The position numbers and the translations under genes are program-made. Under the pieces are notes generated by a model. It did not search any database, was not told the DNA's origin, and worked only from the letters and a program-made list of their open reading frames with translations. This document shows positions 654-23,850 of a stretch of DNA of 23,850 nucleotides, piece by piece. Positions within the stretch are counted from its first letter, which is position 1. The number at the start of each line of letters is the position of its first letter. This DNA comes from a virus, in the IMG/VR virus record IMGVR_UViG_3300008459_000397, positions 1-23,850 of that record; one strand, written 5' to 3'.

Positions 654-662
654 GGAAACCCA

Positions 663-670: not shown

Positions 671-690
671 AAACCAACATATGTATTACT

Positions 691-697: not shown

Positions 698-704
698 GTG
701 TTAG

Positions 705-1640
705 ATGCCAGGTGCTCCTCTACCAAACAGTTTACGTTTTCCTAGAGAGAACATAAATGATTATAAAGGAACTGTTGAGTTCCGTCTAGTGCGTATTGAA
801 CCACCCACTGTGGACGCTTTTGAATTTGGTAAAATTTTAGTAAAATTAGCAGATGATGGAATTGAGGGCCTTACCGGTATAAGTGGTGTAGATCCAGGAT
901 TTCAAGCAGCATTGACAAATAACGCCCCAGTACTACAAGGGCGCCGAGAATTTCCTAGTAGTTATCCAAATGTTATATTATATTTACCTCAAGCTATTCA
1001 GTTTAATGATGGTATGGAATATGATAACAATGTTCAGCTAGGAGTTTTTGGTGCGGCGGGTGAGGCTGCAATAAATGCTGGGCAGGGTACAACAGAAGCG
1101 ATTGCTCAAATTGTCGCCGAGGGTGTAAGTTCGTTTACAGATCTATTTAAACAGATGCCCACTCAAGATCTTGCAAGACTAGCGCTTACAAGAGCTACCC
1201 AAAAAATTCCGGTTCTTGGGGATGTTGTATCCTCAGCAACTAGAGTTGCTGTTAATCCCAACAGAAGAACTCTTTTCAGAGGTGTCCGCCCTCGCGAGTT
1301 TTCTTTCAACTTCAAAATGATTGCTAGTTCTCCACAAGAAGCAAGAGACATTGAAAGTATCATAAAGTTTTTTAGACGCGAGATGCATCCAGCATCAATT
1401 CCTATTGGGAATATATCTGCTGGATACAAATATCCAAACCCATTTCGTATTGATATGAAATACAATGGAAAGCGAGTGGGTCCCAAAATGTTAAATTCAT
1501 ACCTTGTTAATTTACAAACAACTTATAACCCAGGCAGTATGGGATTTCACATTGATGGCATGCCTTCTGAGGTTGATGTCCAAATGATGTTCTTTGAAGA
1601 GCGCGCTATTGAGCAATCTGATGTTGTGCAGGGATACTAA
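705..1640 (+). CDS. gp48: Baseplate tail tube cap, T4 gp48/gp54-like
   Basis: This 311-residue protein resembles the gp48 and gp54 family, two related T4 proteins (364 and 320 residues) that cap the baseplate hub and start tail-tube polymerisation. The supporting part is the C-terminal third, from about residue 190: RGVRPREFSFNFKMIASS, then a helix rich in EARDIESIIKFFRREMHP, a YPNPFRIDMKY strand and a final EVDVQMMFFEE strand, the tube-like beta fold of the family. The N-terminus (LRFPRENINDY) and the YLPQAIQFNDG motif near residue 105 are also typical of marine phage gp48 proteins. AGGTG 4 nt before the ATG is the likely ribosome binding site. It is the first gene of the plus-strand operon. 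The assignment to gp48 rather than gp54 is not certain. Confidence 0.72.
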   Translation: MPGAPLPNSLRFPRENINDYKGTVEFRLVRIEPPTVDAFEFGKILVKLADDGIEGLTGISGVDPGFQAALTNNAPVLQGRREFPSSYPNVILYLPQAIQFNDGMEYDNNVQLGVFGAAGEAAINAGQGTTEAIAQIVAEGVSSFTDLFKQMPTQDLARLALTRATQKIPVLGDVVSSATRVAVNPNRRTLFRGVRPREFSFNFKMIASSPQEARDIESIIKFFRREMHPASIPIGNISAGYKYPNPFRIDMKYNGKRVGPKMLNSYLVNLQTTYNPGSMGFHIDGMPSEVDVQMMFFEERAIEQSDVVQGY

Positions 1641-2366
1641 ATGACTTATTTTAAATCTTTTCCAAATATTTTATACAATTTTGGTAATGAATCTACGCAA
1701 AACGTTACTCAAGATGTTTCACTGTATGTAGAAATAATAGATGAAATAAAAGACAATATAGACTTTTATACAACATACACAATACTTGAAGGGGAGCGGC
1801 CCGATCAGTTATCTCAAAAGATATATGGGTCACCCGATTACTATTGGACATTCTTTTTAATGAATGATAAAATTAGAGAACAAGGTTGGCCATTAAACTA
1901 TCTTGATCTTGACAATCTTATTAAAAAAGAACTACCATATACAACAATCACCACTCGTAACAATGTGACAACATCGTTTAATATCGGCCAGACAATCACC
2001 GGTGGAACGTCAACTGCAACTGGTATTATTAAATCAAGACGATTAGATTTTGGTCAGCTTATTGTTCAAACAACAGGAACATTTCTTGCTGGTGAGGTTA
2101 TTTCAAGTATTGTGGGAGCAACAACTCAGACCACAACCATCTTTACTGGTAATGTTCTACAATACAATTCAACCCACCATTGGGAAGATGCTGATGGGGT
2201 ATGGGTTGATGTGGATCCTGCAGTAGGCACTAGTGCCATCTACACACCTGTTACCTACTACGAAAAATATGTAGCTGATAATGACGCATTACGTGAAATT
2301 AGAATAATTAAGCCTCAAGCTATTAACACAATATACAGATCATTTAATGAAGCGTTGACAATATAA
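1641..2366 (+). CDS. gp53: Baseplate wedge protein gp53 with an extra beta module
   Basis: The 241-residue product resembles T4 gp53 (196 residues), which clamps the wedges around the hub. It opens with the family pattern YFKSFPNILYNFG, followed by a LysM-like stretch at residues 43-95 (YTILEGERPDQLSQKIYGSP, then YYWTFFLMNDKIREQGWPL). The C-terminus (DNDALREIRIIKPQAINTIY) also fits the family. Between them, residues 113-170 form a Thr/Gly-rich insert with the pattern GQTITGGTSTATG then GTFLAGEVIS, which accounts for the extra length. Similar sequences occur in the gp8-like and long tail proteins of this window. The ATG follows the previous stop with no gap, and the stop overlaps the next ATG by one base, so translation is probably coupled. 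Confidence 0.85.
   Translation: MTYFKSFPNILYNFGNESTQNVTQDVSLYVEIIDEIKDNIDFYTTYTILEGERPDQLSQKIYGSPDYYWTFFLMNDKIREQGWPLNYLDLDNLIKKELPYTTITTRNNVTTSFNIGQTITGGTSTATGIIKSRRLDFGQLIVQTTGTFLAGEVISSIVGATTQTTTIFTGNVLQYNSTHHWEDADGVWVDVDPAVGTSAIYTPVTYYEKYVADNDALREIRIIKPQAINTIYRSFNEALTI
1977..2150 (+). other. Inserted Thr/Gly beta module in gp53 (copy 1 of 3)
   Basis: Residues 113-170 of gp53 carry a compact beta-rich module: GQTITGGTSTATG, a short strand pair, then GTFLAGEVISSIVGATTQT. T4 gp53 lacks this length. Related patterns occur in the gp8-like protein (about 13561-13745) and near the N-terminus of the 1904-residue protein (about 14160-14360). The limits are approximate. Confidence 0.5.
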
Positions 2367-3886
2367 TGCGGCCCAGTGACCAATCATCATCAGCTTATTC
2401 ATTTGAATTGGAGACTGCAGAGCTCTATAGTCCCAACTATGCTAATCGCGTATTTGATATACGGAATATTGTAGTTGAAATTGATATATTTGAGAATCTT
2501 GAAAAACCTTATCTAACTGGTAATATTCTTTTAATTAACGACAACGATTTATATTCAGTTTTTAACTTTAACGGTATTCAATCAATAGTACTTGGTTTTA
2601 GATTGCCTGAAAAAGATAGTAAAACAATTCGCAAACGATTTTACATTGATAAAACTGTTCAGGATATAAAAGCTACGGATCGTGAATCAGCACTTCTATT
2701 TCATTTAATTGAAGATATCGGATATGTGTCAGAGTATATAAATGTTAATGATGTGTTTGAGGGTAAGGGATCGGAGATTATCCGCAAAGTTGTATCTTCA
2801 TACTTCGATCGTAAAGTATATTTTGTTGATCAAGTAGAAACAATTGAACCTCAAAAACCTTTTAAGGTTGTTGTTCCAAATTTGACCCCGCTTGAAACTA
2901 CCAGCTGGGTTCTTGATAGAATGACTGCAGAAGACGGATCTCCTTTCTATCTGTATTCAACTTTATCTGGGGCTGAGGTTAGTAGTGATAAGTTAAATAC
3001 AGGTTTATATCTAAAGAACTGGCAAACAATGGTTAACCAGGTCAATAGATCTAGTTATCCTTTTGTATATTCTTCCGCTGAAACAAATAGATCAAATACT
3101 TCTATTGATCAACAAATGTTTGTGATTCAAAACCATTATGATGAGGAATCTTCAGATATAACATCATTGAACGATTCTGGATTTATCAACTCAAAGTTTT
3201 TATTTCACGATGTTAATACTAATACCACCTACATTCCTGGATATGATGAACCAACAGTAAATTATGGCTCTAATAGAACACTGCCATATGGTAAGCGTTG
3301 GACAGCAAAAGCATTCTTTGAAAAAGCATTGGGTAATACAAAACTAAGTGGTGCTGTTGTAGATAAGTATCCTACTGATGGTAGAATTCCATATAGTTTA
3401 AATACCGCTCCAAACACACAAAGTGATATAAACCCATTAATTAGTCAACGCCCCGAAAGCAGAGTTGTTGCTCAAGTGTTTAGTTCGTCAACTCATGATC
3501 CAAGTTATTATTCGTATCTTGAGGGGTTAACTGATGGGGAGCATCTAACAAAGATTAACTCAAAGGCTCTAAAAAACTGGTCAATGTTTTCACCATTAAC
3601 GTTTGCTGTTCCTGGAAGATTGTTTCTTAACGGTACAGTTAATAGCACTATTGGTGTTAAATATAAACTGCAGTTTATATCAGGTGTAGGAGAACAGGCT
3701 CGTATAGATAATCATAGATCGGGTGACTACTTAATGTATGCAGCGCGGCATGTATTTTCACGAGACGGTGGATATACTGTACACTTTAGCGGTATTAAAC
3801 TCAATGGTGGCAAACCCGGCGCACAGAACAATCTTAACGCTCCTGCCCCTTCTCCATATGATACACCTACTACAGGACCTCAATAA
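2366..3886 (+). CDS. gp27: Baseplate hub protein, T4 gp27-like
   Basis: This 506-residue protein is read as the gp27-type hub, the trimer linking tail tube to spike (T4 gp27 is 391 residues). Supporting features are the N-terminal beta stretch with RNIVVEIDIFENLEKPYLTG, a second strand region FRLPEKDSKTIRKRFYIDKT, and the central motif FKVVVPNLTPLETTSWVLDR, which is typical of gp27/gpD-like hubs, where a helix follows PNLTPLE. Its position just before the OB-fold gp5-like protein is strong support, because gp27 and gp5 form one complex. The C-terminal tail is Pro/Asn-rich and probably flexible. The protein is longer than T4 gp27, so additional surface loops are likely. It overlaps both neighbours by one base. 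Confidence 0.75.
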   Translation: MRPSDQSSSAYSFELETAELYSPNYANRVFDIRNIVVEIDIFENLEKPYLTGNILLINDNDLYSVFNFNGIQSIVLGFRLPEKDSKTIRKRFYIDKTVQDIKATDRESALLFHLIEDIGYVSEYINVNDVFEGKGSEIIRKVVSSYFDRKVYFVDQVETIEPQKPFKVVVPNLTPLETTSWVLDRMTAEDGSPFYLYSTLSGAEVSSDKLNTGLYLKNWQTMVNQVNRSSYPFVYSSAETNRSNTSIDQQMFVIQNHYDEESSDITSLNDSGFINSKFLFHDVNTNTTYIPGYDEPTVNYGSNRTLPYGKRWTAKAFFEKALGNTKLSGAVVDKYPTDGRIPYSLNTAPNTQSDINPLISQRPESRVVAQVFSSSTHDPSYYSYLEGLTDGEHLTKINSKALKNWSMFSPLTFAVPGRLFLNGTVNSTIGVKYKLQFISGVGEQARIDNHRSGDYLMYAARHVFSRDGGYTVHFSGIKLNGGKPGAQNNLNAPAPSPYDTPTTGPQ

Positions 3887-4851
3887 TGTTTAAAGCTCTT
3901 AGTCATGCATTTTATGGTGATCAGACCCGATGGTTTATCGGTAAGGTTGTTGACAACAACGACCCTTTGTATCTTGGTCGCGTGCGTATCAACATTCTTG
4001 GCATCCATGACAACATTGCTGATGCTGGGGATCTTCCTTGGGCATCTATGGTTTTACCAACAACAGAAGGCGGAGTAGTATCAGGTTTTCCACCTTCATT
4101 GGATATAGGCGCTCAAGTGTTTGGGATCTTCCTTGATGGGGTTCAATCACAGCTACCCCTTGTAATTGGTTCTATCCCTCACAAATTGCCATATAACGAT
4201 CCCGAGTCTGGAACGTTCGGTGCCTCCGGAGCCGAAGATCGCGATCGCCAAGGGGTTTCTAGTAATCAACCCGGAACAGCTGGACCTTCTGAACCAGTTG
4301 GCTCTCCAAATGAAAGTGCTGAAAAAGCCTATAATTATTTTAGATCTATCCAATACTCAGACGCTGTTGCAAGAGGCATTGTTGGAAATATGATCGTTGA
4401 GTCTATCAACTTTGATCCAGCAGTGATTAGATTTGATCGCTTAGGTGACACTAATACAGATCAGCCTGCTCATGGGGTGTGTCAATGGCGGGGGCCAAGG
4501 TGGCAGGGCCCGCAAGGGTTACAGGCTTTTGCTGCTCAACAGAATCCTCCTCTCAATCCAGCAAATCTTTCAACGCAATTGCAGTTTGTAAAATTTGAAC
4601 TAGACACATTTGCGTATCTCGGTAAACAGGAATTATTCAACTGCACAACCCCAGAACAAGCTGCAGTAACTTTCTGCCGAAAGTTTGAAAACCCAGCTGA
4701 TGAAGCTGGAACCAGTGCCTATAGAGATCCACCATACTCAACAGACGGCAATTTTCCACTAAAAAGAGCTGGTGAAGATAAGCGTATTAACTATGCAAAG
4801 AACTTAGTATTTAACTCTAGGTCTGTAGCTAGCTCAAGCGGCGCAGTATGA
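3886..4851 (+). CDS. gp5: Baseplate hub OB-fold protein with tail lysozyme domain, gp5-like
   Basis: This 321-residue protein combines an N-terminal OB-fold (residues 14-100: RWFIGKVVDNNDPLYLGRVR, then LPWASMVLPTT, IGAQVFGIFLDG, PLVIGSI) of the gp5/VgrG type, a Gly/Ser/Pro/Asn linker (about 106-143), and a C-terminal domain resembling the phage tail lysozyme family (about 145-310). In that domain GIVGNMIVESINFDP places Glu172 as the probable catalytic acid, and GVCQWRG is the family's second motif. In T4 gp5 (575 residues) the OB-fold, a different (T4L-like) lysozyme and the beta-helical needle are in one chain; here there is no needle, which appears to be supplied by the gene at 6318. The predicted role is cutting glycan strands as the spike crosses the wall. 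Confidence 0.82.
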   Translation: MFKALSHAFYGDQTRWFIGKVVDNNDPLYLGRVRINILGIHDNIADAGDLPWASMVLPTTEGGVVSGFPPSLDIGAQVFGIFLDGVQSQLPLVIGSIPHKLPYNDPESGTFGASGAEDRDRQGVSSNQPGTAGPSEPVGSPNESAEKAYNYFRSIQYSDAVARGIVGNMIVESINFDPAVIRFDRLGDTNTDQPAHGVCQWRGPRWQGPQGLQAFAAQQNPPLNPANLSTQLQFVKFELDTFAYLGKQELFNCTTPEQAAVTFCRKFENPADEAGTSAYRDPPYSTDGNFPLKRAGEDKRINYAKNLVFNSRSVASSSGAV

Positions 4852-12036: not shown

Positions 12037-12044
12037 TATAAATA
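12037..12044 (+). promoter_or_regulatory. T4-type late promoter TATAAATA for the gp8/tail protein genes
   Basis: A perfect TATAAATA lies in the 42-nt gap after the gp7-position gene, 27 nt before the ATG at 12072. It would start a transcript covering the small fibre-like protein, gp8, the long Hint-bearing protein and possibly everything downstream, since no further promoter is visible. Confidence 0.75.
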
Positions 12045-12071: not shown

Positions 12072-12506
12072 ATGACTAGACAAAACATCAGCACAGGATC
12101 AGCAGCAAACGACGGAACCGGAGACACTCTGCGATCTGCCGGTACCAAGATTAATGCTAATTTTGGTGAACTTTATTATGATCTTGGTGGCGATAGCGAT
12201 ACGCTACCAGGAAAGCGTGTGCTCCACAGATACAATACAATAACAAGTGATGGCACACTTAGCCTTGCGTATGATTACTATATTCTTAACAAAGGCACAG
12301 CTCTTGCAATTACACTACCTAGCGGTGGTCAAATTGGCGAAACGAAAGTATTCACAAATAAAGGAGCTGGTGTAGCAACTGTTACAGCCAATCTAGCTGG
12401 AGCTTCCGTATCATTTGCTCTTGCACAAAACGAGGGTTGCCAGGTAATTTGGGATGGTACTGAGTGGTTTATAATTGGTAACCAAAGCGTTGTTACGTTA
12501 GCCTAA
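12072..12506 (+). CDS. Small tail-fibre-like structural protein
   Basis: This 144-residue protein has an N-terminal signature, NDGTGDTLRSAGTKINANFG (residues 13-32), that recurs in many marine phage fibre and virion proteins. It probably marks a short attachment segment. The rest is predicted beta, with LPSGGQIGETKVFTNKG and a final IWDGTEWFIIGN strand, as in small jelly-roll or fibre tip proteins. There is no signal peptide or membrane segment. The site GTGGAAG precedes the ATG. It lies between the wedge genes and gp8, so a role as a minor baseplate or short fibre component is inferred. The exact function is unknown. Confidence 0.65.
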   Translation: MTRQNISTGSAANDGTGDTLRSAGTKINANFGELYYDLGGDSDTLPGKRVLHRYNTITSDGTLSLAYDYYILNKGTALAITLPSGGQIGETKVFTNKGAGVATVTANLAGASVSFALAQNEGCQVIWDGTEWFIIGNQSVVTLA

Positions 12507-12518
12507 TAGGAAATATAA

Positions 12519-13868
12519 ATGGCAATTGTTACAGATACATTTAAGAAGTTTGTTGGGGACAAAATCAAACTCGATTTTGACAGCGCCGCCACTCTTTACT
12601 TTATTGGCATTGGTCGTTCACAAGTTTGGAACGATTCTGATATCACAACAACCCCAACGAATAGACCAGCTACAGAAAGAGACTTCCGTCAAAACCTTCA
12701 AGCTGTAAGACAGATTAATGACATATCATTTGTTATTCCTAGAGTCAACTGGACATCTGGTTCAATATATAATGCTTTTGATGATAATGTAACAAATTAT
12801 CCATCCCCAAACTACTATGTTCTAAACCAATCAAACGATGTATATGTTTGTATCCAACAGGGTAGAACTGTGGCTGGTATTGCAGCTGCTTCTACCGTTG
12901 AACCAACCGGAACACTAACCACAATAGTTAAAACCGCTGATGGATACATCTGGAAGTATTTGTATACTATTGGTGCTTATAGTGCAAGCCGCTTCTTGGC
13001 AAGTAACTATATGCCTGTACAGTTTATTGATTCTGCAGACTCTAATGATCCCATCAGCGAACGCGTTCAGCTTGATATTCAAAATGCAGCCATCGATGGA
13101 CAAATACTAGGTATTGCTATCACAAGCGGCGGCACTGGTTATTCCTCAACTCCGACAATAACTATTTACGGTGATGGGGAAAGTGCTACAGCAACTGCAA
13201 TTATCTCCGGTGGAGCTGTTGTTGATATTAAAATGGATAGCAATGGTGCCGGTCAGATAAAAGGTTCTGGTTATCAACAAGCATCTGTTTCGTTCTCAGC
13301 AGGAAACGCAACAGCTAGAGCAATCTTAGCTCCTAAAGGTGGGCTTGGGGCCAACCCAATTATCGATCTAAAATCAACCTATATTATGCTCAATGGCAGA
13401 CCTTCTGGTACTGAAAATGGAACATTCTTAATCAATCAAGATTTTAGACAGGTTGGAGTGATTCGCAATATCAAAAAGCTAAATGCTTTCGACTCAGACT
13501 TTACTGATGCATCAGCAACGGCTCTTACTAAACTAATATTCAATCCAGGTGCCACAGCATTTACCACTGACAATATTATTGTTGGTGCAACATCTGGAGC
13601 AAAAGCGTACATAGACTTTGCTGATTCTGGTGCCGGTGCGTTTATACACCAAACAGAAACAACTGGATTTAGAAACTTTCAAATTGGCGAATCTCTAACA
13701 GCAACAAACCTTGCCGGCTCAGCAACAACAGGATCGGCGGTTTTAGCCTCCTTTGACTCAGCTACTGTAAACAAGTATAGTGGTGAACTGCTATATATTG
13801 ATAATAGAGCTGCAATCGTCAGATCAGCCGGCGAAACTCAAGACATTAAAGTAGTAATTCAACTATAA
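12519..13868 (+). CDS. gp8: Baseplate wedge protein gp8 with extra beta modules
   Basis: This 449-residue protein matches T4 gp8 (334 residues) at both ends: N-terminal YFIGIGRSQVWNDSD (T4 FITFGRSEPW), FVIPRVNWTSGSIYNAFDD, then TADGYIWKYLYTI (T4 GDGYVWEYLFEI), and at the C-terminus YSGELLYIDNRAAIVRSAGE (T4 HSGEMIYMENRPPIIMAMDQ). gp8 forms dimers on the outer wedge. The additional length comes from two inserts: residues 190-276, a repeat region with SGGTGYSSTPTITIYGDGES then SGYQQASVSFSAGN, and residues 347-408, a beta module with NIIVGATSGAKAYI then FQIGESLT, resembling the insert in gp53. The ATG follows TAGGAAAT. It precedes the long tail protein, as T4 gp8 precedes gp9 and gp10. Confidence 0.9.
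   Translation: MAIVTDTFKKFVGDKIKLDFDSAATLYFIGIGRSQVWNDSDITTTPTNRPATERDFRQNLQAVRQINDISFVIPRVNWTSGSIYNAFDDNVTNYPSPNYYVLNQSNDVYVCIQQGRTVAGIAAASTVEPTGTLTTIVKTADGYIWKYLYTIGAYSASRFLASNYMPVQFIDSADSNDPISERVQLDIQNAAIDGQILGIAITSGGTGYSSTPTITIYGDGESATATAIISGGAVVDIKMDSNGAGQIKGSGYQQASVSFSAGNATARAILAPKGGLGANPIIDLKSTYIMLNGRPSGTENGTFLINQDFRQVGVIRNIKKLNAFDSDFTDASATALTKLIFNPGATAFTTDNIIVGATSGAKAYIDFADSGAGAFIHQTETTGFRNFQIGESLTATNLAGSATTGSAVLASFDSATVNKYSGELLYIDNRAAIVRSAGETQDIKVVIQL
13104..13345 (+). repeat. Gly-Tyr beta repeats inserted in gp8
   Basis: The encoded segment has two imperfect copies of a pattern made of SGGTGYSSTPTITIYGDGES and, after about 35 residues, SGYQQASVSFSAGNATARA. Each has a GxGY turn, a beta strand and a G(D/N)G(x)AtA motif. 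The repeat lies between the two conserved ends of gp8 and is not in T4 gp8. Confidence 0.5.
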
Positions 13869-13882
13869 CGGTAAAATAAAAT

Positions 13883-16800
13883 ATGGCTAGTACACTTATT
13901 CAAAACCTTTTTGCTACCACATATAAAGATGATTATCGTGATAGTGATAACTACCACCGTATCTTATTTAACTCAGGTAGAGCTCTTCAAGCAAGAGAGC
14001 TTACCCAGATGCAGACAATTATCCAAAATGAAATAGCTCGTTTTGGTCGTAATATCTTTAAGGAAGGCGCATCTGTAGTGCCTGGTGGTGCTACATTAGA
14101 TACTAATTATACATTTGTTAAACTTAACACCGCTACTAACACACTACCTACAACCAACCTTGTAAATAATATTTTCACTGGTCAAACGTCTGGTCTCCGC
14201 GCAAAGATTTTAGAAGTTGTGCCAGCGGAAGGTGCTGACCCAGCTACATTATATGTTGAATATATCGGTGGGGTGTCAGGCGGGGTATCCACAGCATTAA
14301 GATTCACTCCTGGCGAAAACATAACTGATGGTACAACCACTTTAACTGTACAAACAACAAATACTGATACGAATCGTGCATCTGGCCAAGGTGTAAGATT
14401 TTCTGTAGCAAATGGAACATTTTTTACTAGAGGCCATTTTGTATTTGTTGAGCAGCAGTCTCTTATTATTAGTAAATACAGCCCGGTGTATAATGGGGTA
14501 GTGGGTTTCATAGTTACAGAAGACGTTGTTACAGTCGCTGATGATGTTAATCTATATGACAACCAAGGGGTAACGCCAAACACAACCGCCCCAGGGGCCG
14601 ACAGATATAGAATTACATGTACATTAACAGATCAATCAAATGTTGATTCTGATCAAGATTTTATCTATGTTGCTGAAATAAAAAATTCAGTAATTGTTGA
14701 TAACGTCAAAGGCACAGGCGAATTTAATAAGATTAATGATCTTCTTGCTACGAGAACAAAAGAGGAATCTGGAGATTATATTGTTAGACCATTCTATCTA
14801 AAGTTTGATGAAGATTCAGATATTAATTTTCTAATTGCTGATGTTTCAGCTGGTGTAGCATATCTTAATGGATACAGACGCGAGGTGCCGGCACCTCAAA
14901 AAATTAGAATTCGTAAACCAACGTCTACTGCATCTTTTAATAACGAGGCAATTGCTGCTAACTACGGTAACTATATTGTTTGTTCAACAATTAAAGGCAC
15001 TCCATTAATCAACACGGTTGAGAAATGGAATTTGAGAAGTGCAACCGGATACGGTGGTTCAACTATTGGTACAGCGCGTGTTAAAGCGGTTGAAGAAGAT
15101 GGTGCAACTTACAAATACTATCTAACTGACATTTTAATGACTGGTTCTAACAACTTCAGAGATGTTAGATCAATTGGTGTTAGTGTAACAACATATGCAG
15201 ATCTTGTATTGGAAAACTCACTAGCAGTTATTAAAGATGCTGCAAACAATGATTTGCTGTTTGCTCTTCCAAGACAAAGACCTCAAAATATTTCCGATAT
15301 TAGCTTGCAGGTGCAAAAGCGTTTTACTACCACAAACGCATCAGGAACGGCAACGCTCGGCCCAGGTAATCTAGGAGCAGGTGAAACTTGGGCTGATGTC
15401 AACTCGTGGATTATAACCGTTGATTCAAGTGGTAATAATATTTCCTCCACTGTATCTGTTTCAGGTTCTGGAACCACAACTGCAACAATTAGTAGCATTC
15501 CTGTTGGTAACGGCGCAACGATTGAAGTGCTAGCTTATATCGATAAGTCGGCAGGTGTCGCTGCTACAAAGACTATGACTACAACAACGCGTAGCGCTGC
15601 TATTGAATCTGACGGTACTGGCAATAAATATTTAGATTTGCGCAAAGCAGATGTATATGACATTCTTAGAGTTAGAGACTCAGATTCAAACGGTGCTGAC
15701 CTAACTAACTACTTCAGATTTGATAATGGCCAGCGCGATAACTTCTACGATACTGGTAAGCTGAGACTTAAATCGACATTCTCCGCTCCTACTGGAAACG
15801 TGTTTGCTAGATTCCGCTACTTTACTCAAGGTGCTGGTGATTTCTTTGCTGCAACATCATACGATTCGGCAACAACTGGATTGTCTTATAGCGAAATTCC
15901 CAACTTTAGACTATCAAACGGCACAACTGTTAATCTTAGAGATTTTCTAGATTTCCGCCCTCGCATTGGAGACCGTGGAACAACCTTTGATAGCGCTACA
16001 GCTAGTATAAGATTCCTACCTAAAAACACGGATATTATCCGCGCAGATGTAGACTACTATTTGCCAAGATCTGATAAACTTGTTTTATCAGAAGCCTTTA
16101 CTAGCTCTAGGGGTAAATCGGATATTGATGCTGTCCTGACATTTATTGAGGGTACGCCGTCATTTAATCCAGATTATCCCCCTACTCCAGAAAATGCTAT
16201 GGAGCTGTACAAAATTCGAATGAATCCTAATACATTGAATGATTCGGATTTGGGTATTTCTATGATTGAACACAAGCGCTACACAATGGCAGATATTGGA
16301 GCTCTTGAAAAAAGAATTGACCGCTTAGAAGAATACACAACACTATCATTATTGGAACTTGAGACAAGTACTTTTGCTGTTGTCGACTCGGCTGGTATTT
16401 CAAGAACTAAAGCTGGATTTTTGGCTGATGGTTTTTCTGATCACTTCTTTTCTGATACAATATCGACAGAATATAGAGCTTCTATCAATCCAAAGGCAGG
16501 AGTTGTTAGACCGTCTGTAATAACAAATAATATTAGACTAAAATACGACTCTAGTAAATCTTCAAATGTTGTGTTGAAGGGAGATACTGTATATCTAAAT
16601 TATGATGAAGTTGAATTTGTTTCACAACCAATGATGTCTGGATCAGAAAACATTAATCCGTTCCACGTCATCAACACTATTGGCACTCTTCATCTATCTC
16701 CCGCTTCCGATGAATGGAAAGACACTCAATACCTTCCCGCTCGAATTATTGACGGTGGTATAAGAGTAGATGTTAACCCTCAATCAAACTTTAATGAGCA

Positions 16801-19597
16801 TCAGTGGCAGTGGCAGGGTAATACAACCAGTAATACAACCGGTAGTGTAACTGATGGTGTTGGCACCGTAGTAGGTGGATCAACATCGACCTCAACATCA
16901 AGAAAGACAACCACAAATCCTAACGGCGGAACAACAACTACTACCACCAGAACAACTACAACAGTTGTTGATAGAGTTGTTGCTGACGAAACAATCCGTT
17001 CAACAATTGGTGATAGAGTTGTTGATGTTGCTGTTATTCCATTTATGAGATCACGTAAGATTCACTTTGAAGCATTTGGTTTAAAACCATTTCAACAGTA
17101 TTTTGCAGTCTTTGATAATACTTTGGTATCCGATTGGGTTCGTGAAGAACCATTTGTTAACTATGCAGAAACAACAAATGATTATGGAAATATCTACAAT
17201 AATGCTACACAACATCCAGAAGGACCCACAATCTTAACATCGGATGGTAGTGGTTTGATGACTGGGTCATTCTTTATTCCTAATACACCAAATCTTAGGT
17301 TTAGAACCGGTATTCGCGAATTTAAATTACTTAACGTTAATTCAAACAATGAAGTTGACGCCACTTCTCTAGCTGTTGGTGTTTATGAAGCTAATGGAAT
17401 TTTAGAAACAAGACAACAAGACATTCTATCAACTCGAGCAATTACTGTTCGCTCATTTACATCAACATCAACTGAGACATCTGTATCGGTTACAGATCCA
17501 CCACCGCCTCCGCCTCCGCCTCCGCCAGATCCACCTGAACCGAGGGTTCCTCGTCGAACGAGAGATGATCAGTTTTCGTGCTTTGTTGCAGGAACTCAGA
17601 TTACTATGGCGGATGGGTCTAAGAAAAATATTGAAGATGTCGAAATTGGTGAAAAACTATTAGGCCAAGATGGTGTGATTAACACCGTTCTTGAATTTGA
17701 TCATCCTCAACTTGATGGTAGAGATATAATCGGTATTAATGGTAACGGCAAGTTTATGACGCCAGAACATCCACTCTTTACTAAGAATGGTTGGAGATCA
17801 TATTCAGCAGCAACGTTTGAACGTCAATTCCCGCATATGTTATTCCTCGATGTAAAAGATCTTGAAATTGGGGATGAGATTCTTGTTGATGATGGTTCTT
17901 GGCTACTTGTTGAAAGTTTGGAAGTATATAAAAATGAACCAGAGCAAACTGTCTACAATTTTATCCTAGATGGTAATAATACCTATTATGCAAATGGTTT
18001 ATTGGCTCATAATAGAAGTCATAGTGACCCACTAGCTCAAACTTTTTACAATAATTTTGATGAGGGGGTCTTCTTAACAAAGGTTGCTATATATTTTAAG
18101 ACAAAACCAACAGACGCTAATAACCCATCAACTGTTACTCTTGAGATTAGATCTGTTGTAAATGGTTACCCATCATCAAACTTTGTTGTTCCAAACTCTA
18201 CAGTTACCTTGGCTCCAAGTCAAGTTAATCTTCCAGCTGCCCAAACAGTAGACGCAGTATTAGCTGCTCCAACATACTTTGTCTTCCCAGAACCCGTATT
18301 TTTAATGGGCGACACTGATTACTGTATTGTTCTTCTTACGGGAACAACTGACTATAATGTTTATGTTGGCGAAACTGATGCCTTTGTTCTTGGAAGCGAT
18401 CAAAGAAGAATCACTCAACAACCATCCTTAGGATCACTATTTAAGTCTCAAAATCAACAAACATGGGAACCGGATCAAACAAAAGATCTAGCCTTTAAAT
18501 TATTCAGAGCTGAGTTCAGTACATCCCCTGGATATGCTGTACTTGAAAATGTTGATGTGCCTAAGAAACTACTTGTTACAGATCCAATTCAAGTAGACTC
18601 TGGATCTCGTTGGGCTACAATTTATCACCCGCTCCACGGTTTCGACTCAGGAGATACGGTTAATATAACTGGACTAGATTCTGCTACTACATACAGCGGA
18701 GTTTTAGGAAGAAGCATTATAGGAAACAATATTGTTAGTTTCCCTGATGCTTCTGGTTTCCAGATCTATATGGACTCTGCAGCAACAGCGACCGCACTTG
18801 TTGGTGGCTCATCAGTATTAGCTAGCCAAAATTTCATGTATGATATTATTAATCCTCATATTGATATGTTGGTTCCGGGCTCAACGTTTGTAGGAACATC
18901 GGCAAAGCTCACAACAGGAAGATCCCTAGCTGGTAATGAAACAAGATTTGTTAAAGATGCTAATTTTAACAGTATTGTAGTAAAAGAGGATAACTATGCA
19001 AATGCTCCTCTAATGGTTGCAGATCGCAGTTATGAAAATCTTGCTCCTCTAAATGGTGAACGATCTATATCAGTCAAGATTGATATGGTATCTTCAAGAG
19101 GCTCTGTATCTCCTATTATTGATATGCAAAGAGCATCATCAATTTTGGTGAGTAATTTGATTGATAAACAAGACTCTGATCGCTCTCTTGCAGGATTCAA
19201 TACACCACTCGTGTTTATTAATGAAACAGACCCTCAAGATGGAACCCATGTGGCAAAGCACGTGACTGTTCCTGTGGGACTTGCTGAGGATGCTGTAGGC
19301 CTGCAAGTTGTTCTAGCTGCTAATAGACCAGCAGATGCTGACTTCCTTGTATACTATAGAACTGCAACTAGCGGTGTAAATATTAGAACAAAGAACTGGA
19401 CATATGTTGCTCAAGATGTTCCTATTCCTTCTGATGATAACCCTAATGTGTTCCGTGAGTATCGTTATCTAATAGGTGGAAAAAATGGTACATTAACACC
19501 ATTTACAGAATATCAATTAAAAATTGTATTCCGTTCTACAAACAGTTCTAAGGTTCCATCAATAACAGACCTGAGAGTAATAGCTTTGGGGAACTAA
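13883..19597 (+). CDS. Long tail structural protein (DUF4815-like) with embedded Hint domain
   Basis: This 1904-residue protein resembles the long virion proteins of marine T4-like phages, usually found near gp8. The N-terminus has the conserved YHRILFNSGRALQARELTQM and FGRNIFKEGASVVPGG patterns. A beta module follows at residues 93-158; a coiled-coil-like stretch (YTMADIGALEKRIDRLEEYT, about 800-825) and a Thr-rich linker (about 979-1030) come next. Ten consecutive Pro residues (1206-1215) lead to a Hint domain from Cys1233 to Asn1377. The C-terminal module (1382-1904) begins SDPLAQTF and continues with VFLTKVAIYFKTKPTDANNP, as in homologs without Hint. By position it corresponds to gp9/gp10-type outer baseplate or fibre-attachment proteins. 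Cleavage or splicing at the Hint would change its final form: 1232- and 527-residue pieces, or a 1759-residue chain. The ATG follows a short AT-rich gap. Confidence 0.82.
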   Translation: MASTLIQNLFATTYKDDYRDSDNYHRILFNSGRALQARELTQMQTIIQNEIARFGRNIFKEGASVVPGGATLDTNYTFVKLNTATNTLPTTNLVNNIFTGQTSGLRAKILEVVPAEGADPATLYVEYIGGVSGGVSTALRFTPGENITDGTTTLTVQTTNTDTNRASGQGVRFSVANGTFFTRGHFVFVEQQSLIISKYSPVYNGVVGFIVTEDVVTVADDVNLYDNQGVTPNTTAPGADRYRITCTLTDQSNVDSDQDFIYVAEIKNSVIVDNVKGTGEFNKINDLLATRTKEESGDYIVRPFYLKFDEDSDINFLIADVSAGVAYLNGYRREVPAPQKIRIRKPTSTASFNNEAIAANYGNYIVCSTIKGTPLINTVEKWNLRSATGYGGSTIGTARVKAVEEDGATYKYYLTDILMTGSNNFRDVRSIGVSVTTYADLVLENSLAVIKDAANNDLLFALPRQRPQNISDISLQVQKRFTTTNASGTATLGPGNLGAGETWADVNSWIITVDSSGNNISSTVSVSGSGTTTATISSIPVGNGATIEVLAYIDKSAGVAATKTMTTTTRSAAIESDGTGNKYLDLRKADVYDILRVRDSDSNGADLTNYFRFDNGQRDNFYDTGKLRLKSTFSAPTGNVFARFRYFTQGAGDFFAATSYDSATTGLSYSEIPNFRLSNGTTVNLRDFLDFRPRIGDRGTTFDSATASIRFLPKNTDIIRADVDYYLPRSDKLVLSEAFTSSRGKSDIDAVLTFIEGTPSFNPDYPPTPENAMELYKIRMNPNTLNDSDLGISMIEHKRYTMADIGALEKRIDRLEEYTTLSLLELETSTFAVVDSAGISRTKAGFLADGFSDHFFSDTISTEYRASINPKAGVVRPSVITNNIRLKYDSSKSSNVVLKGDTVYLNYDEVEFVSQPMMSGSENINPFHVINTIGTLHLSPASDEWKDTQYLPARIIDGGIRVDVNPQSNFNEHQWQWQGNTTSNTTGSVTDGVGTVVGGSTSTSTSRKTTTNPNGGTTTTTTRTTTTVVDRVVADETIRSTIGDRVVDVAVIPFMRSRKIHFEAFGLKPFQQYFAVFDNTLVSDWVREEPFVNYAETTNDYGNIYNNATQHPEGPTILTSDGSGLMTGSFFIPNTPNLRFRTGIREFKLLNVNSNNEVDATSLAVGVYEANGILETRQQDILSTRAITVRSFTSTSTETSVSVTDPPPPPPPPPPDPPEPRVPRRTRDDQFSCFVAGTQITMADGSKKNIEDVEIGEKLLGQDGVINTVLEFDHPQLDGRDIIGINGNGKFMTPEHPLFTKNGWRSYSAATFERQFPHMLFLDVKDLEIGDEILVDDGSWLLVESLEVYKNEPEQTVYNFILDGNNTYYANGLLAHNRSHSDPLAQTFYNNFDEGVFLTKVAIYFKTKPTDANNPSTVTLEIRSVVNGYPSSNFVVPNSTVTLAPSQVNLPAAQTVDAVLAAPTYFVFPEPVFLMGDTDYCIVLLTGTTDYNVYVGETDAFVLGSDQRRITQQPSLGSLFKSQNQQTWEPDQTKDLAFKLFRAEFSTSPGYAVLENVDVPKKLLVTDPIQVDSGSRWATIYHPLHGFDSGDTVNITGLDSATTYSGVLGRSIIGNNIVSFPDASGFQIYMDSAATATALVGGSSVLASQNFMYDIINPHIDMLVPGSTFVGTSAKLTTGRSLAGNETRFVKDANFNSIVVKEDNYANAPLMVADRSYENLAPLNGERSISVKIDMVSSRGSVSPIIDMQRASSILVSNLIDKQDSDRSLAGFNTPLVFINETDPQDGTHVAKHVTVPVGLAEDAVGLQVVLAANRPADADFLVYYRTATSGVNIRTKNWTYVAQDVPIPSDDNPNVFREYRYLIGGKNGTLTPFTEYQLKIVFRSTNSSKVPSITDLRVIALGN
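17498..17527 (+). repeat. Polyproline tract with CCGCCT repeats
   Basis: Ten Pro codons in a row (CCA CCA CCG CCT CCG CCT CCG CCT CCG CCA) encode residues 1206-1215 of the long tail protein. The alternating CCG/CCT units form a short tandem repeat that could expand or contract by slippage in whole codons. The tract stiffens the linker between the N-terminal part and the Hint domain. Confidence 0.8.
17579..18013 (+). other. Hint (intein-like autoprocessing) domain without homing endonuclease
   Basis: The 145 residues from Cys1233 to Asn1377 carry the intein blocks in order: block A CFVAGTQITMADGS, followed by IEDVEIGEKLL; block B MTPEHPLF with Thr1293 and His1296 (TxxH); block F TVYNFILDGNNTYYANG; and block G LLAHN with His1376-Asn1377. 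There is no endonuclease insert. The block F position that is often His is Asn1366. The next residue is Arg1378, not the Cys, Ser or Thr needed for ordinary splicing. The domain is in frame with both flanks and lies directly before the SDPLAQTF module. Self-cleavage is therefore more likely than clean splicing. This type resembles bacterial intein-like domains. Confidence 0.85.
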
Positions 19598-19803
19598 TGA
19601 AAAACTATATTCCAGTATCAGGCAATCGTTCATTTGCTCGAGATGAAAAAACGGGGGCTATTGTGAACATAAATACTGAAGAGATTAAGGAAGCGCGTAA
19701 TAGAAAAGCTGCGAAGAATAAAGAAAAAGAAGAATTTCAGCAGCTAAAAACAGAAGTTGCTGAAATTAAACAACTGCTAAAACAATTGGTTGAGAAACTA
19801 TAA
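19597..19803 (+). CDS. Small coiled-coil phage protein
   Basis: This 68-residue, highly charged protein has an N-terminal segment (NYIPVSGNRSFARDEKTGAI) and a C-terminal helix with heptad hydrophobics (FQQLKTEVAEIKQLLKQLVE). Comparable small proteins follow the long tail protein in marine T4-like phages. The first ATG overlaps the preceding TAA (TAATG), and its own stop overlaps the next start, so all three genes are probably translated together. A role in oligomerising or bridging tail fibre parts is a guess; no enzyme motif is present. Confidence 0.65.
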   Translation: MKNYIPVSGNRSFARDEKTGAIVNINTEEIKEARNRKAAKNKEKEEFQQLKTEVAEIKQLLKQLVEKL

Positions 19804-20483
19804 TGGTACTAAGAACAGTAAATCTATCTGATACTATTGATCAGTGGAAGAATCAGCACAATAGTCTTGCAACAGATGTTGGCGATCTTTCCCTATTAAA
19901 CACTACAGATAGCTCTAGCATTGTAGCTGCAATCAACTCGTTGATTGGTGAGTTTGATTCTGCTAACATTGTTACTCTAGCTCGAAGCTCTTTGAGTGGT
20001 GGTACTGGAATCACATATAGCTCATCTACTGGTGTTATAACATTAAGTGTTCCAGCAAACACTATTACGTTTACTATGATGGCAGACTCTGCTATTGGTA
20101 CATCGGAGCTAAGAAACAACTCTGTAACGTTTGAAAAAATGGCAGACTCTGCTATTGGTACATCGGAGCTAAGAAAAAATGCTGTTACTTATTCTAAAAT
20201 ACAGAACATTGTAACAGCTAACAGAGTGTTGGGATCAACATCAGCAAATGGTCCTGTTACAGAAGTGCAAATTCAAACAGCAATGTATGCTACAGGATCG
20301 GTTGACTCTGCAGCACTTGGTAGCTTATCAGTAGCTACAGCCAAGCTTCAAAACAATGCTGTAACGTTTGACAAGATGGCTGATTCTTCTGTTGGAAGCA
20401 ACGAGCTTCGTCAAGCTGTTCAATTAATCATATATAATTCAGCTGGTTCAGCTGTTAAATCATTGTATGGTGCTGGTGAGTAA
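19803..20483 (+). CDS. Tail-fibre-like repeat protein
   Basis: The 226-residue product has a fibre-like layout. A helical N-terminus (LSDTIDQWKNQHNSLATDVG, residues 8-27) is followed by GGTGITYSSSTGVITLSVP, a motif common in phage fibres, and then a 20-residue tandem repeat, VTFEKMADSAIGTSELRNN type, with two nearly identical copies and a diverged third one near the C-terminus (NAVTFDKMADSSVGSNELRQ). Such repeats typically form triple-stranded fibre shafts. The absence of a signal sequence or membrane helix supports a virion role. Its translation is coupled to both neighbours by one-base overlaps. The receptor or partner is unknown. Confidence 0.7.
   Translation: MVLRTVNLSDTIDQWKNQHNSLATDVGDLSLLNTTDSSSIVAAINSLIGEFDSANIVTLARSSLSGGTGITYSSSTGVITLSVPANTITFTMMADSAIGTSELRNNSVTFEKMADSAIGTSELRKNAVTYSKIQNIVTANRVLGSTSANGPVTEVQIQTAMYATGSVDSAALGSLSVATAKLQNNAVTFDKMADSSVGSNELRQAVQLIIYNSAGSAVKSLYGAGE
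20079..20176 (+). repeat. 60-bp tandem repeat in the fibre gene
   Basis: The 38 bases 20079-20116 are identical to 20139-20176, a 60-nt period (20 codons) starting ATGGCAGACTCTGC. The rest of each unit differs. A third, diverged unit lies near 20352-20413. The identity of the two adjacent copies suggests recent duplication. Confidence 0.85.
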
Positions 20484-21424
20484 TGGCAGTAAGAAGACCT
20501 CTTAAACTCGACGGATCTAATAACCTTGTTGAGATGAGCGATACAGATATCGCTAACATCAAGGCTGAGATGGTTCGTCAGTATAGCTTAAGCCCTTCCG
20601 TCACTCTTGCGTATAGCGCTGGGAGTGGTAACTTGGGGACAATTGCTGATACCAGATATCAAGCTGGTGCCGTATCTTCAACAAATACTTCGTTCCCGAC
20701 AGAAGCTACAACTGCTGAACCAAGTCAGTTAACTGTTAACTATACAACAATTCTTGAGGCTTTTACTACACTATCGGCACCCGCTGATACAAATAGTGTT
20801 GCATTTCCTGTATATCTAACAGCATCAAACCACATTCAAGCTATGACTCTTACAGACATGCGCGACACCTTTGTTGATGATGTTATTACAACCTTAACGA
20901 CTGCAGCTACGACCACTTCTCAGGGTGGCACATATAGAATTCACACTGCAAACACTCTAGCTGGCCATACATTAGTTAGTGCAACTCCAGTATTCACAGA
21001 TACGCGGCCAGATTTGACTCTATATACTGCATTAGGTATTCCTGAAACCCAGGACCAACCGGTTACAGTTACTAACTATTATCTGTTTAGAATTGATGGT
21101 GCGACCGTTGGTACAATTCCTACACCAGTGTTTGTTAGAAACGCTGATGGTAATTTACAACAATATACTACTGCAGCTTTACAAACCATACTTCAAGATA
21201 TGGTCCGCTACTATGCAGCTAACGTTACTGGATACAAGGTAGATTATGCTCTTTCAACATCAGCTACAAACTCTCGTGGATCTGGTATGGCTAATACCGA
21301 TTACACTAGCGTCACCGGTAACTATCAGACAAACCAGGTTGGGGATACATATTATGCGCAAGAATTCCCGAACGGAACCCTATCAACGATAACTACTACA
21401 TATTTAACATGCGCACGAGTGTAA
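20483..21424 (+). CDS. Virion structural protein, fibre-associated
   Basis: This 313-residue protein opens with AVRRPLKLDGSNNLVEMSDT, a pattern I associate with virion proteins of marine T4-like phages. It is Thr/Ala-rich and mostly predicted beta, with segments such as TYRIHTANTLAGHTLVSATP, NYYLFRIDGATVG and a C-terminal TTTYLTCARV. No catalytic motif, membrane segment or signal peptide is visible. It is coupled to the fibre-like gene by a one-base overlap and followed by a new ribosome site. A tail tip or fibre accessory role is inferred from composition and location only. Confidence 0.62.
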   Translation: MAVRRPLKLDGSNNLVEMSDTDIANIKAEMVRQYSLSPSVTLAYSAGSGNLGTIADTRYQAGAVSSTNTSFPTEATTAEPSQLTVNYTTILEAFTTLSAPADTNSVAFPVYLTASNHIQAMTLTDMRDTFVDDVITTLTTAATTTSQGGTYRIHTANTLAGHTLVSATPVFTDTRPDLTLYTALGIPETQDQPVTVTNYYLFRIDGATVGTIPTPVFVRNADGNLQQYTTAALQTILQDMVRYYAANVTGYKVDYALSTSATNSRGSGMANTDYTSVTGNYQTNQVGDTYYAQEFPNGTLSTITTTYLTCARV

Positions 21425-21437
21425 AGGATTTTATATA

Positions 21438-21983
21438 ATGGCAACTTTTTCAGGTAAACAGATTCTCCACGCCGTTTTTACAAACAATGCTAACGATACA
21501 ATTGAAGTCGTTTACAACCATAAAGAAGATGGTGAGACTCCTGAGTATATTAGCGTTTGGGTTCCAGCTACAGACCCCACAAACGTGGAGTTAATAGGTT
21601 TAAAGCAAGAGGGTTGGTCTTTTGAAAGAATCCAACGAGAAACTCACAATTATCTTGAGAAGCAAAAGCAGGCCCGCGAAGCTCGCATGTATAAGATGGT
21701 TGAAGAAAAAGTAGAAGAAACAAAACTTAAAATTGCCCAAATGTATGAGCAGCGATACAATGAAATGATTGACGCTGGTCCAGTAGTAACGACAAACATT
21801 CTTCAAGCTGTTATTGAATTAAATAACGACGAAGATATTTTATTTAAAACAAAACTAGCTGTGTTTGATTTGCCACAGGTAAAGGATTTAAAAGATAGAG
21901 CCTCTAAACAAAAAATTAGGACGGCCAAATCTTTAATGGAATTGTTTGGAGTTTTGGGAGCAGTTTTAGAAGAAACAAAATGA
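21438..21983 (+). CDS. Uncharacterised coiled-coil phage protein
   Basis: The 181-residue product starts with a beta-containing part (GKQILHAVFTNNANDTIEVV) and has a long charged helix at about residues 56-110 (ETHNYLEKQKQAREARMYKM, then KLKIAQMYEQRYNEMID), which should form a coiled coil. A second helical part closes the protein. No family is recognised. AAGGA lies upstream of the ATG. The stop overlaps the next start by four bases (ATGA). Between the fibre genes and the transferase genes it might be a fibre assembly chaperone, but the sequence does not show that. Confidence 0.55.
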   Translation: MATFSGKQILHAVFTNNANDTIEVVYNHKEDGETPEYISVWVPATDPTNVELIGLKQEGWSFERIQRETHNYLEKQKQAREARMYKMVEEKVEETKLKIAQMYEQRYNEMIDAGPVVTTNILQAVIELNNDEDILFKTKLAVFDLPQVKDLKDRASKQKIRTAKSLMELFGVLGAVLEETK

Positions 21984-22642
21984 ATATAATATTTGTGAAT
22001 TTTGGCACCAAGTATACTCCTGGGCATGTCAATCAACTTTTTAATGCTTTAAAAAAACACAACAGTACTTTTAAATATTTTGTTTATACTGACAATGACT
22101 TTAAAGATATAGGTCAGTATGATTTAGATATAAAAATCATAAAACCTTTAAAACCTAAACTGCCAAAGTGGTGGAATAAGCTAGCTATGTTTAGTGAAGC
22201 TTTTCCAGTTAGGGGCCGGATTTTATATTTCGACATCGACACTGTTATAAAAAGCGATCCATTTAAAATAATTAATGATATCGATTGGTCTAAACTAACA
22301 ATGATAGATTGTCATTGGAAGTCAAAAGATATGATCAGATTGACTAATCTTGACGTTACAATTAATTCATCTGTCCTTGCATGGGATTCAGATAATCCAA
22401 AAATACACCATATATGGAACCATTTTAATAGTGGCTATAAAGACTACTATCTAAGAAAATATGTTGGCATAGATAGGTTTCTAGTGCATGAATCTTTCGA
22501 TGCTAGTTTGTTTGCACATTTCCCCCACGATTATATTATGTCATACAAATATGAAAGCCACGATAAGCTGGCTCCAGTAATTACTTTTGAGGAATTAGAT
22601 TTTGGATCAATTGATACTCTACAGATCTCTCAAACTCGTTGA
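21980..22642 (+). CDS. Glycosyltransferase-like protein (GT-A fold)
   Basis: This 220-residue protein has a GT-A type start (MNIIFVNFGTKYTPGHVNQL), a Lys/Pro loop, then WWNKLAMFSEAFP and RILYFDIDTVI. Asp85-Ile86-Asp87 is the DxD motif that coordinates metal and the nucleotide-sugar in such enzymes. NSSVLAWDSDNPKIHHIW, about residue 129 onward, is comparable to the acceptor side region of GT8-like proteins. It is at the short end for the fold. Its start overlaps the previous stop by four bases. The substrate is not evident. A second DxD protein begins at 23237, separated by a methyltransferase-like gene, so they may act on the same surface glycan or protein. Confidence 0.68.
   Translation: MNIIFVNFGTKYTPGHVNQLFNALKKHNSTFKYFVYTDNDFKDIGQYDLDIKIIKPLKPKLPKWWNKLAMFSEAFPVRGRILYFDIDTVIKSDPFKIINDIDWSKLTMIDCHWKSKDMIRLTNLDVTINSSVLAWDSDNPKIHHIWNHFNSGYKDYYLRKYVGIDRFLVHESFDASLFAHFPHDYIMSYKYESHDKLAPVITFEELDFGSIDTLQISQTR
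22589..22594 (+). promoter_or_regulatory. Ribosome binding site for a TTG start
   Basis: GAGGAA ends 7 nt before the TTG at 22602 and lies within the end of the glycosyltransferase-like gene. It is the best site near the beginning of the next frame; the first in-frame ATG (22662) has no comparable site close by. Confidence 0.5.
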
Positions 22643-23240
22643 AGAGATCTACAATGAATCTATGTACGGTGATCCAGACATCTATAGAATAAAAGATGTT
22701 GTGCACAGCGTTGACGCTAACCACTGGAAAAGCAAGCAGTGGTTGGTTGACGTCTTTTATCAAGTTTACGGGTTCGATTCTGGTAAAGTGTTTGTTGCAG
22801 GAGGCTGGTACGGCTTACTGAGTTTTCTACTACGTAAAAGATACCCAGACAAATCCTTTAATATAGAGTCAGCCGACATGGATCCAAAGTGTGAGCAGTT
22901 TGGATACAAATTGTTCTTTGATCAAGATATTGCCTTTACAACGATGGATGTTGTAAAGGCTGACAAAGATCTTGAAGACTGCACAGCTATTATTTGCACT
23001 AGCTGCGAGCACATTGATAAAGATGATCTCGCAATGTTCATAAAAACAAAACCAGCAAACGCTTGGTTAATTTTGCAAACAAATGACTATACTGATCTAG
23101 CATCACATGTCAACTGCAGCAGCAGCTTAGAAGATTTTGTTGACTTTGTTGACAAGGCGATGCCCAACGAACCCTACTGGGCGTACAAGGGCGCGTTGAA
23201 CTTGGGTGACTTTACAAGATATATGGTGATCGTACGATGA
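22602..23240 (+). CDS. SAM-dependent methyltransferase-like protein
   Basis: The 212-residue product has a Rossmann-like centre. KVFVAGGWYGLLSFLLRKRY (residues 62-81) matches the position of methyltransferase motif I with AGGWYG in place of GxGxG, and NIESADMDP (87-95) supplies the acidic end of the second strand; DCTAIICTSCEHI (about 126-138) fits the next strand. The N-terminal part contains DVVHSVDANHWKSKQWLVD. TTG is used as the start because of the ribosome site at 22589-22594, giving a 41-nt overlap with the glycosyltransferase-like gene. A start at ATG 22662 would shorten it by 20 residues. The substrate is unknown. The variant motif I means that cofactor binding is inferred. Confidence 0.58.
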   Translation: MDQLILYRSLKLVEEIYNESMYGDPDIYRIKDVVHSVDANHWKSKQWLVDVFYQVYGFDSGKVFVAGGWYGLLSFLLRKRYPDKSFNIESADMDPKCEQFGYKLFFDQDIAFTTMDVVKADKDLEDCTAIICTSCEHIDKDDLAMFIKTKPANAWLILQTNDYTDLASHVNCSSSLEDFVDFVDKAMPNEPYWAYKGALNLGDFTRYMVIVR

Positions 23241-23850
23241 GAAGAATTATATTTACCATATACATTAACATCCCAGATGATCAGTTGGATAACCCAGGTC
23301 ACTACTCTCCTGATGGTATCCTACAAGATACTGATAAGAGCAAGAAGACAAAAGATGCGTTGACAAAGTATAAAGATCATCTGATTAATAGGCAAAAACA
23401 ATATGCTGATAAATTGAGTGTTGACTATAAGGTATTTGAGTGGGATGAAGAATACACAAACTTTGTTGAGCATTTTAAGATAAACTATCCACAAATATCC
23501 CACTATGATATTATATGCTTTTACAAGCATCACCTAATGCTGTTGCTTGCTGAGCAGTATGATCAGATCTGTTATTTTGATTTGGATATATTACCAAACA
23601 CTGATGATAACGTTTTTGAGACTTTTGATTTAGCTAACACGTTTGCTGTTCCTGACTCAAACAAAGAAGCAGTTTGGGGTAAAACAGTACATCCAAAATA
23701 CTACAACACTTGTATTAGAAACCCAGCCACAAAGTATTGGAATGCTCATGCTATGTTAAGCGAAGAAGGATATGAGCCTGATCAGCATGTCTACAATACT
23801 GGTATCATGGTTGCATCAAGCGAGATTATCAAGAAGCTAGATTACTTTGG
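23237..23850 (+). CDS. Glycosyltransferase-like protein, 3' end outside window
   Basis: From the ATG at 23237, overlapping the preceding TGA by four bases (ATGA), an open frame of 204 codons runs off the right edge. It begins MRRIIFTIYINIP, has a Lys-rich helical part, and CYFDLDILPNTDDNVFE places a DxD at Asp115-Leu116-Asp117. The later pattern VYNTGIMVASSEIIKKLDYF is typical of GT8-like proteins, where an NTG motif follows the DxD. The N-terminal segment is longer than that of the first glycosyltransferase-like gene and not closely similar, so the two are probably not recent duplicates. The substrate is unknown. Confidence 0.68.
   Translation, partial: MRRIIFTIYINIPDDQLDNPGHYSPDGILQDTDKSKKTKDALTKYKDHLINRQKQYADKLSVDYKVFEWDEEYTNFVEHFKINYPQISHYDIICFYKHHLMLLLAEQYDQICYFDLDILPNTDDNVFETFDLANTFAVPDSNKEAVWGKTVHPKYYNTCIRNPATKYWNAHAMLSEEGYEPDQHVYNTGIMVASSEIIKKLDYF

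Follow-up and report, generated by a model that had tools for sequence, protein, structure and literature searches.

A conserved glycosyltransferase-methyltransferase module linked to fibre-region genes in pelagimyophage-like T4 relatives

The 23,850-base linear virus record analysed here (the window) is a fragment of a T4-like pelagimyophage whose last three genes, encoding a glycosyltransferase (GT1), a methyltransferase (MT) and a second glycosyltransferase (GT8), are its share of a conserved GT1-MT-GT8-GT4 module that, in pelagimyophage-like relatives of T4, is linked to f313 and chap181, two genes of the fibre region. Glycosyltransferases beside fibre genes have already been published for these phages, as the consulted portion of that report indicates (PMC7029224). 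Judged against the available text of earlier work, the fixed methyltransferase-bearing cassette, the almost complete linkage of this cassette to f313 and chap181 and its occurrence in both orientations appear to be new. Tentatively, and with somewhat less than even confidence, we read the cassette as a cytoplasmic protein-glycan machine that would serve the phage's own fibre apparatus.

Results

Organization of the window

Pfam and PHROG searches identified T4-like baseplate and tail genes in the window, and a DNA search detected no similarity between the window and phage records. A gp8-like baseplate wedge gene (12519-13868; phrog_438) precedes a + strand gene (13883..19597) for a 1904-aa VrlC-like baseplate/tail protein with DUF4815 (PF16075, E 5.2e-52) and an inserted Hint domain; a profile built from this protein matches VrlC of the cultured phage Mosig with an E-value of 6.7e-221. 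On the same strand follow genes for a 68-aa virion structural protein (19597..19803; phrog_473, E 2.8e-15), a 226-aa tail-fibre-like protein (19803..20483; phrog_892 tail fiber, E 6.6e-12), the 313-aa Thr-rich fibre-region protein f313 (20483..21424) and the 181-aa protein chap181 (21438..21983). The cassette begins 2.4 kb past the VrlC-like gene, where fibre genes and glycosyltransferases are both present, and comprises GT1 (21980..22642), MT (22602..23240) and GT8 (23237..23850).

The initial annotation had placed three overlapping transferase-like genes on the strand of the fibre genes and running directly on from them. All three genes are indeed on the + strand and the overlaps are as described, ATGA between chap181 and GT1, 41 nt between GT1 and MT and ATGA between MT and GT8. 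The direct run-on stands in part: the transferases are tied to the fibre block, but the gene just before them encodes the coiled-coil protein chap181, which is not evidently a fibre. Similarly, the three genes are real but the proposed cluster is one gene short, as a fourth transferase, GT4, follows in the nearest relatives. The GT8 ORF leaves the contig after 204 codons, compared with a length of about 287 aa in relatives. MT begins with TTG, a start which is credible because a Shine-Dalgarno-like GAGG lies 9 nt upstream, the residues ahead of the first ATG are conserved, and in several relatives ATG stands at the position of the TTG or beside it. Comparison of the window with three relatives gave pN/pS values of 0.18-0.20 for GT1, 0.08-0.14 for MT and 0.13-0.16 for GT8, low values which indicate that all three are real genes under purifying selection.

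f313 homologues are present in Mosig and in the 80 contigs examined (the best 80 of at least 528 matches). The protein has no Pfam or PHROG match, and its position suggests a fibre role. Thr makes up 18.5% of f313, the highest content among the window's 18 forward ORFs that are 120 aa or longer, and the family mean over 199 homologues is 13.7%; Thr-rich fibre proteins may still be unglycosylated. The chap181 model (pLDDT 89.2) consists of a beta N-terminus, a long coiled coil of variable length and a helical C-terminus, and had no PDB match at E <= 0.001 (best VIA Z 6.4); a chaperone role is not claimed, since the model lacks such a match. In relatives chap181 ranges in length from about 120 to over 400 aa (L137, L150, L152, L157 and others), variation that apparently arises from coiled-coil repeats and resembles a spacer of tuned length.

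In the window's VrlC-like protein a Hint/intein-like insert spans about aa 1233-1377 (PF05203, E 3.7e-11), beginning SCFVAGT and ending AHN, with Arg instead of Cys, Ser or Thr as the next residue. Among 88 distinct VrlC ORFs, the Hint start motif with MADG occurs in 5 (the window, L002, L014, L027 and L131), and in relatives without the insert the flanking DPLAQTF motif comes directly. Two close relatives, L204 and L202, have VrlC as two separate ORFs (484-4227 and 4274 onward in L204), the split lying upstream of the DPLAQTF-like motif and not far from the position of the window's Hint insert.

Identity of the transferases

GT1 matches the PHROG 1962 family 'glycosyltransferase' (E 7.5e-8), and both aspartates of its DXD motif, D85 and D87, are invariant in all 29 aligned members. 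PF01501, the family 8 glycosyltransferase profile, does not match GT1 of the window and matches 2 of the 29 members weakly (best E 4.4e-4). GT8 matches PF01501 with an E-value of 3.3e-7 (30.6 bits against a cut-off of 24.3), as do 5 of 11 members of its family at E <= 0.01, and its DXD residues D115 and D117 are invariant in all 11. Profiles of GT1 and GT8 had no matches in sequence searches of solved structures. GT4, a 232-aa protein that comes after GT8 in the closest relatives, has no convincing Pfam match; its DXD is invariant in 17 of 17 members, three of which match the PHROG glycosyltransferase family of GT1. Profile comparison related GT1 to GT4 with a probability of 96% and found no relation between GT1 and GT8, and the idea that a single enzyme is present in three copies was abandoned for this reason. 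In one relative, two GT8-type domains are fused in a single 581-aa ORF (L021:9161-10906) directly after GT1 and MT.

MT had no Pfam match at E <= 0.1 and none in PHROG or NCBIfam. Its AlphaFold model (pLDDT 94.9) adopts a class I methyltransferase fold, with 941 PDB matches at E <= 0.001 in a fold search and VIA Z values of up to 18.4 to methyltransferases (5w7k, rmsd 2.6, 179 aligned); the fold names the class and no substrate, because methyltransferases of many substrates tie. Searched by profile against solved structures, MT gave weak spermidine-synthase/methyltransferase matches only (best E 0.0011), and the top matches of the model in BFVD are unnamed phage proteins. The Gly-rich motif GGWYG is conserved, with W69 invariant, and the acidic residue D92 is invariant in 30 of 30 members. 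MT is a predicted class I SAM-dependent methyltransferase, and these conserved motifs fit SAM binding and methyl transfer. No membrane-like segment was detected in GT1, MT, GT8 or GT4, the maximum 19-residue Kyte-Doolittle mean being 1.27.

Linkage of the cassette to fibre-region genes

Linkage was examined by using f313, GT8 and MT in turn as bait and taking the best 80 matches for each, a choice which makes the three locus sets lean to close relatives. For f313, 52 of the best 80 of at least 528 confirmed matches have at least 5 kb downstream; every one of these 52 carries at least one cassette glycosyltransferase and 46 carry MT together with two or more glycosyltransferases, the six without MT being L207, L219, L220, L221, L269 and L270. 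Cassette genes were found upstream of f313 in none of the same 80 contigs, 64 of which have at least 5 kb on that side. Near-identical contigs are present in this set, which collapses to 54 groups at 90% identity; among group representatives with 5 kb downstream, a glycosyltransferase is found in 37 of 37 and MT as well in 32 of 37. For GT8, 39 of the best 80 of 205 matches have 5 kb on both sides, and within 7 kb these contigs contain chap181 in 39 cases, f313 in 38, MT in 37 and a second glycosyltransferase in 38. The strict one-strand order chap181-GT1-MT-GT8-GT4 is observed in 27 of these best 80 GT8 contigs. The tie of the transferases to the fibre block is therefore supported by the f313 and GT8 searches as well as by Mosig.

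Cassette orientation is variable, the first cassette gene being on the opposite strand in 33 of the 52 f313 contigs that extend at least 5 kb downstream (best 80 of at least 528). Persistence of the linkage despite strand inversion, in these contigs and in Mosig, indicates that it reflects more than a shared transcript. The MT family extends beyond the cassette: of the 39 more distant MT contigs flanked by 5 kb on each side (best 80 of at least 533 matches), 18 have none of the three glycosyltransferase families.

Extended islands of relatives also encode carbamoyltransferases, DegT aminotransferases and epimerases (66 of 79 unclassified downstream ORFs scanned). The phage cassette is also present in two GTDB bins with the labels Rhodobacteraceae and Bacteroidetes, as f313-chap181-GT1-MT-GT8 in L105 and GT1-MT-GT8 in L106; these are probably phage contigs binned with bacteria. 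Bacterial MT homologues (L107, L108, L109, L112, L113 and L115) have a conserved neighbour on the opposite strand, and glycosyltransferase family 28 C-terminal domains were detected in 11 of the 61 neighbours of bacterial MT homologues that were scanned, from 107 listed.

Expression

The octamer TATAAATA is located 15-70 nt ahead of an ORF start at 110 of 201 sites in 81 contigs, compared with a median of 5% for 56 permutations of its letters. By strand, it precedes ORFs at 107 of 173 sites on the structural strand and at 3 of 28 on the other. In these phages TATAAATA therefore behaves as a late-promoter-like signal almost solely of the structural strand, a claim that rests on position over the 81 contigs; the window considered by itself contains ATAAATA 6 times against an expectation of 8.4, no more than chance, and sigma-70 and terminator scans remained at chance level. 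In the window the octamer occurs at 663, 8735 and 12037, the last of these (12037..12044, + strand) lying 35 nt before the ORF at 12072-12506, and no further exact copy is found to 23850, consistent with late transcription reading through into the cassette. Virion genes lie on both sides of the module in window-type contigs, and in seven of them TATAAATA directly follows GT4 and precedes the next gene on the fibre side (about 117 aa). Copies just before MT in 7 same-strand contigs were rejected as promoter evidence because they coincide with the SYKY codons in GT1. In Mosig, a palindromic AT-rich stretch with the motif on both strands lies by the start of the opposite-strand operon, an ambiguous arrangement.

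The proposal that these genes are expressed late with the fibres is consequently plausible in the window but not general: with 33 of 52 first cassette genes inverted, co-transcription is a property of the window's branch and not of the system. Early expression had been offered as grounds for rejecting the initial reading, a condition that is too strict since, according to the consulted part of the source, the capsid-glycosylating genes of PBCV-1 are expressed early (PMC9614988). The TATAAATA signal may prove useful because promoter detection in pelagimyophages is reported, in the available text, to have failed (PMC7029224).

Discussion

A close counterpart of this arrangement is Pelagibacter phage Mosig EXVC030M (MT647606), in which homologues of MT, GT8, GT4, GT1, chap181, f313 and VrlC are found in one neighbourhood; the Mosig cassette differs in being opposite in strand to the fibre genes, in having a nitroreductase gene that separates GT4 from GT1 and in being joined to carbamoyltransferase, radical SAM and aminotransferase genes. 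The main text of the Mosig genome announcement does not discuss the cassette. The gtrABC systems of P22-like phages include a membrane flippase and membrane enzymes, and none of GT1, MT, GT8 or GT4, all soluble-looking, is of this type. As described in the part of the source consulted, the gtrABC systems resemble the cassette as phage-borne glycosyl-modifying clusters acting on a phage-bound glycan but belong to temperate phages (PMC2629481). At the level of the region, the cassette resembles the host recognition cluster (HRC) of pelagimyophages and cyanomyophages, described in the available text as lying downstream of VrlC, bordered on its other side by the neck gene gp14 and mixing fibre genes with glycosyltransferases (PMC7029224): the window cassette opens a region downstream of VrlC which contains fibre genes and glycosyltransferases, GT8 prominent among them. 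In contrast to the HRC, which is portrayed there as hypervariable and nonsyntenic, the cassette is a fixed GT1-MT-GT8-GT4 set adjoining f313 and chap181 in many contigs, and whereas the published structural operons contain only structural or hypothetical proteins, the window cassette is inside a structural-strand gene run (PMC7029224). The word methyltransferase is absent from the main text of the same article (PMC7029224). No account of the cassette was found in literature on virion glycosylation or on VrlC with glycosyltransferases, a survey in which subscription papers were mostly outside the scope and which leaves absence unproven.

PBCV-1 belongs to a different virus realm. Its A064R protein, as described in the portion of the report consulted, combines two glycosyltransferase domains, one of them GT-A with a DXD, and a class I methyltransferase domain, about 200 aa each, which build and methyl-cap a virion glycan (PMC9614988); the likeness to the cassette is one of function, since A064R is a single three-domain protein acting on a capsid N-glycan. 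Glycans are also reported on structural proteins, the capsid and tail tube, of a tailed mycobacteriophage (Freeman 2023, as cited in PMC12619734).

In the proposed decoration of the fibre apparatus, the glycosyltransferases would add sugars in turn, from host nucleotide-sugars, to a fibre protein encoded by a neighbouring gene, the best guess from adjacency being Thr-rich f313, and MT would cap or otherwise modify one sugar, with methyl from SAM, before assembly. We infer the virion-protein acceptor, the placement of methyl on sugar, the order of the steps and the effect on adsorption or shielding. This proposal draws on the fixed and inversion-proof linkage to f313, the soluble-looking enzymes, the Thr-rich composition of f313 and a module bracketed by virion genes with no late-type promoter before it; A064R may serve as a precedent by analogy, to the extent that the consulted text describes it (PMC9614988). 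The same genes could instead act outside the virion, adding and methylating sugars on LPS or another surface glycan of the host during infection, so that released virions avoid debris and competing phages are kept from adsorbing, with fibre and receptor-altering enzymes having to match. We consider this a strong competitor that nevertheless falls short of an even chance. A receptor-binding fibre and receptor-altering enzymes would likewise be expected to travel together, and family 8 enzymes are better known from LPS synthesis, both of which count against decoration of the fibre. The carbamoyltransferases, DegT aminotransferases and epimerases near the cassette in relatives, sugar-making and O-carbamoylating activities among them, are also expected of surface-polysaccharide clusters, glycosyltransferase genes occur near bacterial MT homologues, and the inverted cassettes (33 of 52) are on a strand where late-type promoters are nearly absent (3 of 28 sites). 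GT8 is, in the consulted text, the top-represented glycosyltransferase family of pelagimyophages, and the authors propose O-chain modification against coinfection (PMC7029224), and phages such as epsilon34 are described as carrying gtrABC operons that modify the host O antigen (PMC2629481). However, the cassette enzymes have no membrane-like segment and no flippase was seen, the window genes are apparently in a late structural operon, which would leave little time for surface remodelling, and a fixed partnership with f313 and chap181 in an otherwise hypervariable region is not specifically predicted by host-surface modification. Sequential glycosylation and methyl capping of f313 is slightly favoured over host-surface modification.

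Two explanations that involve neither fibre nor host surface appear much less probable. Modification of a small molecule or metabolite, with the linkage arising from an insertion hotspot alone, is consistent with the MT family being broader than the cassette (18 of 39 distant MT contigs, best 80 of at least 533) and with a fold that names no substrate, but a hotspot leaves unexplained both the linkage to one fibre gene in 52 of 52 contigs (best 80 of at least 528) and the fact that the same three or four families recur whichever way they are oriented, and we regard this explanation as improbable. Hypermodification of phage DNA, in which the glycosyltransferases would decorate modified bases against restriction, appears more improbable still: phage glycosyltransferases can glycosylate DNA, as the consulted parts of two reports state (PMC7029224, PMC12619734), but no base-modification gene was detected in the cassette or the scanned neighbours, the cassette is tied to fibre and not to replication genes, and a single SAR11 genome out of more than 100 is noted, in the text available, to encode restriction-modification (PMC7029224).

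Returning to decoration of the fibre, a broader version is possible but distinctly doubtful, namely that f313, its coiled-coil partner and GT1-MT-GT8-GT4 form a co-evolving fibre glycosylation-and-methylation unit, near-universal in one large marine T4-like clade, whose recognition or shielding would operate via a phage-made methylated glycan. Phages of SAR11-type bacteria are very abundant and, to our knowledge, how they recognize their hosts is poorly known. If the fibre is decorated, host recognition or resistance to decay may be determined by a sugar and not only by protein sequence, and the cultured phage Mosig makes the cassette testable. If the host surface is altered instead, the cassette would be a clear candidate for a role in competition between ocean phages. 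On either reading, the fixed neighbourhood provides a precise, small set of genes, as opposed to a hypervariable island.
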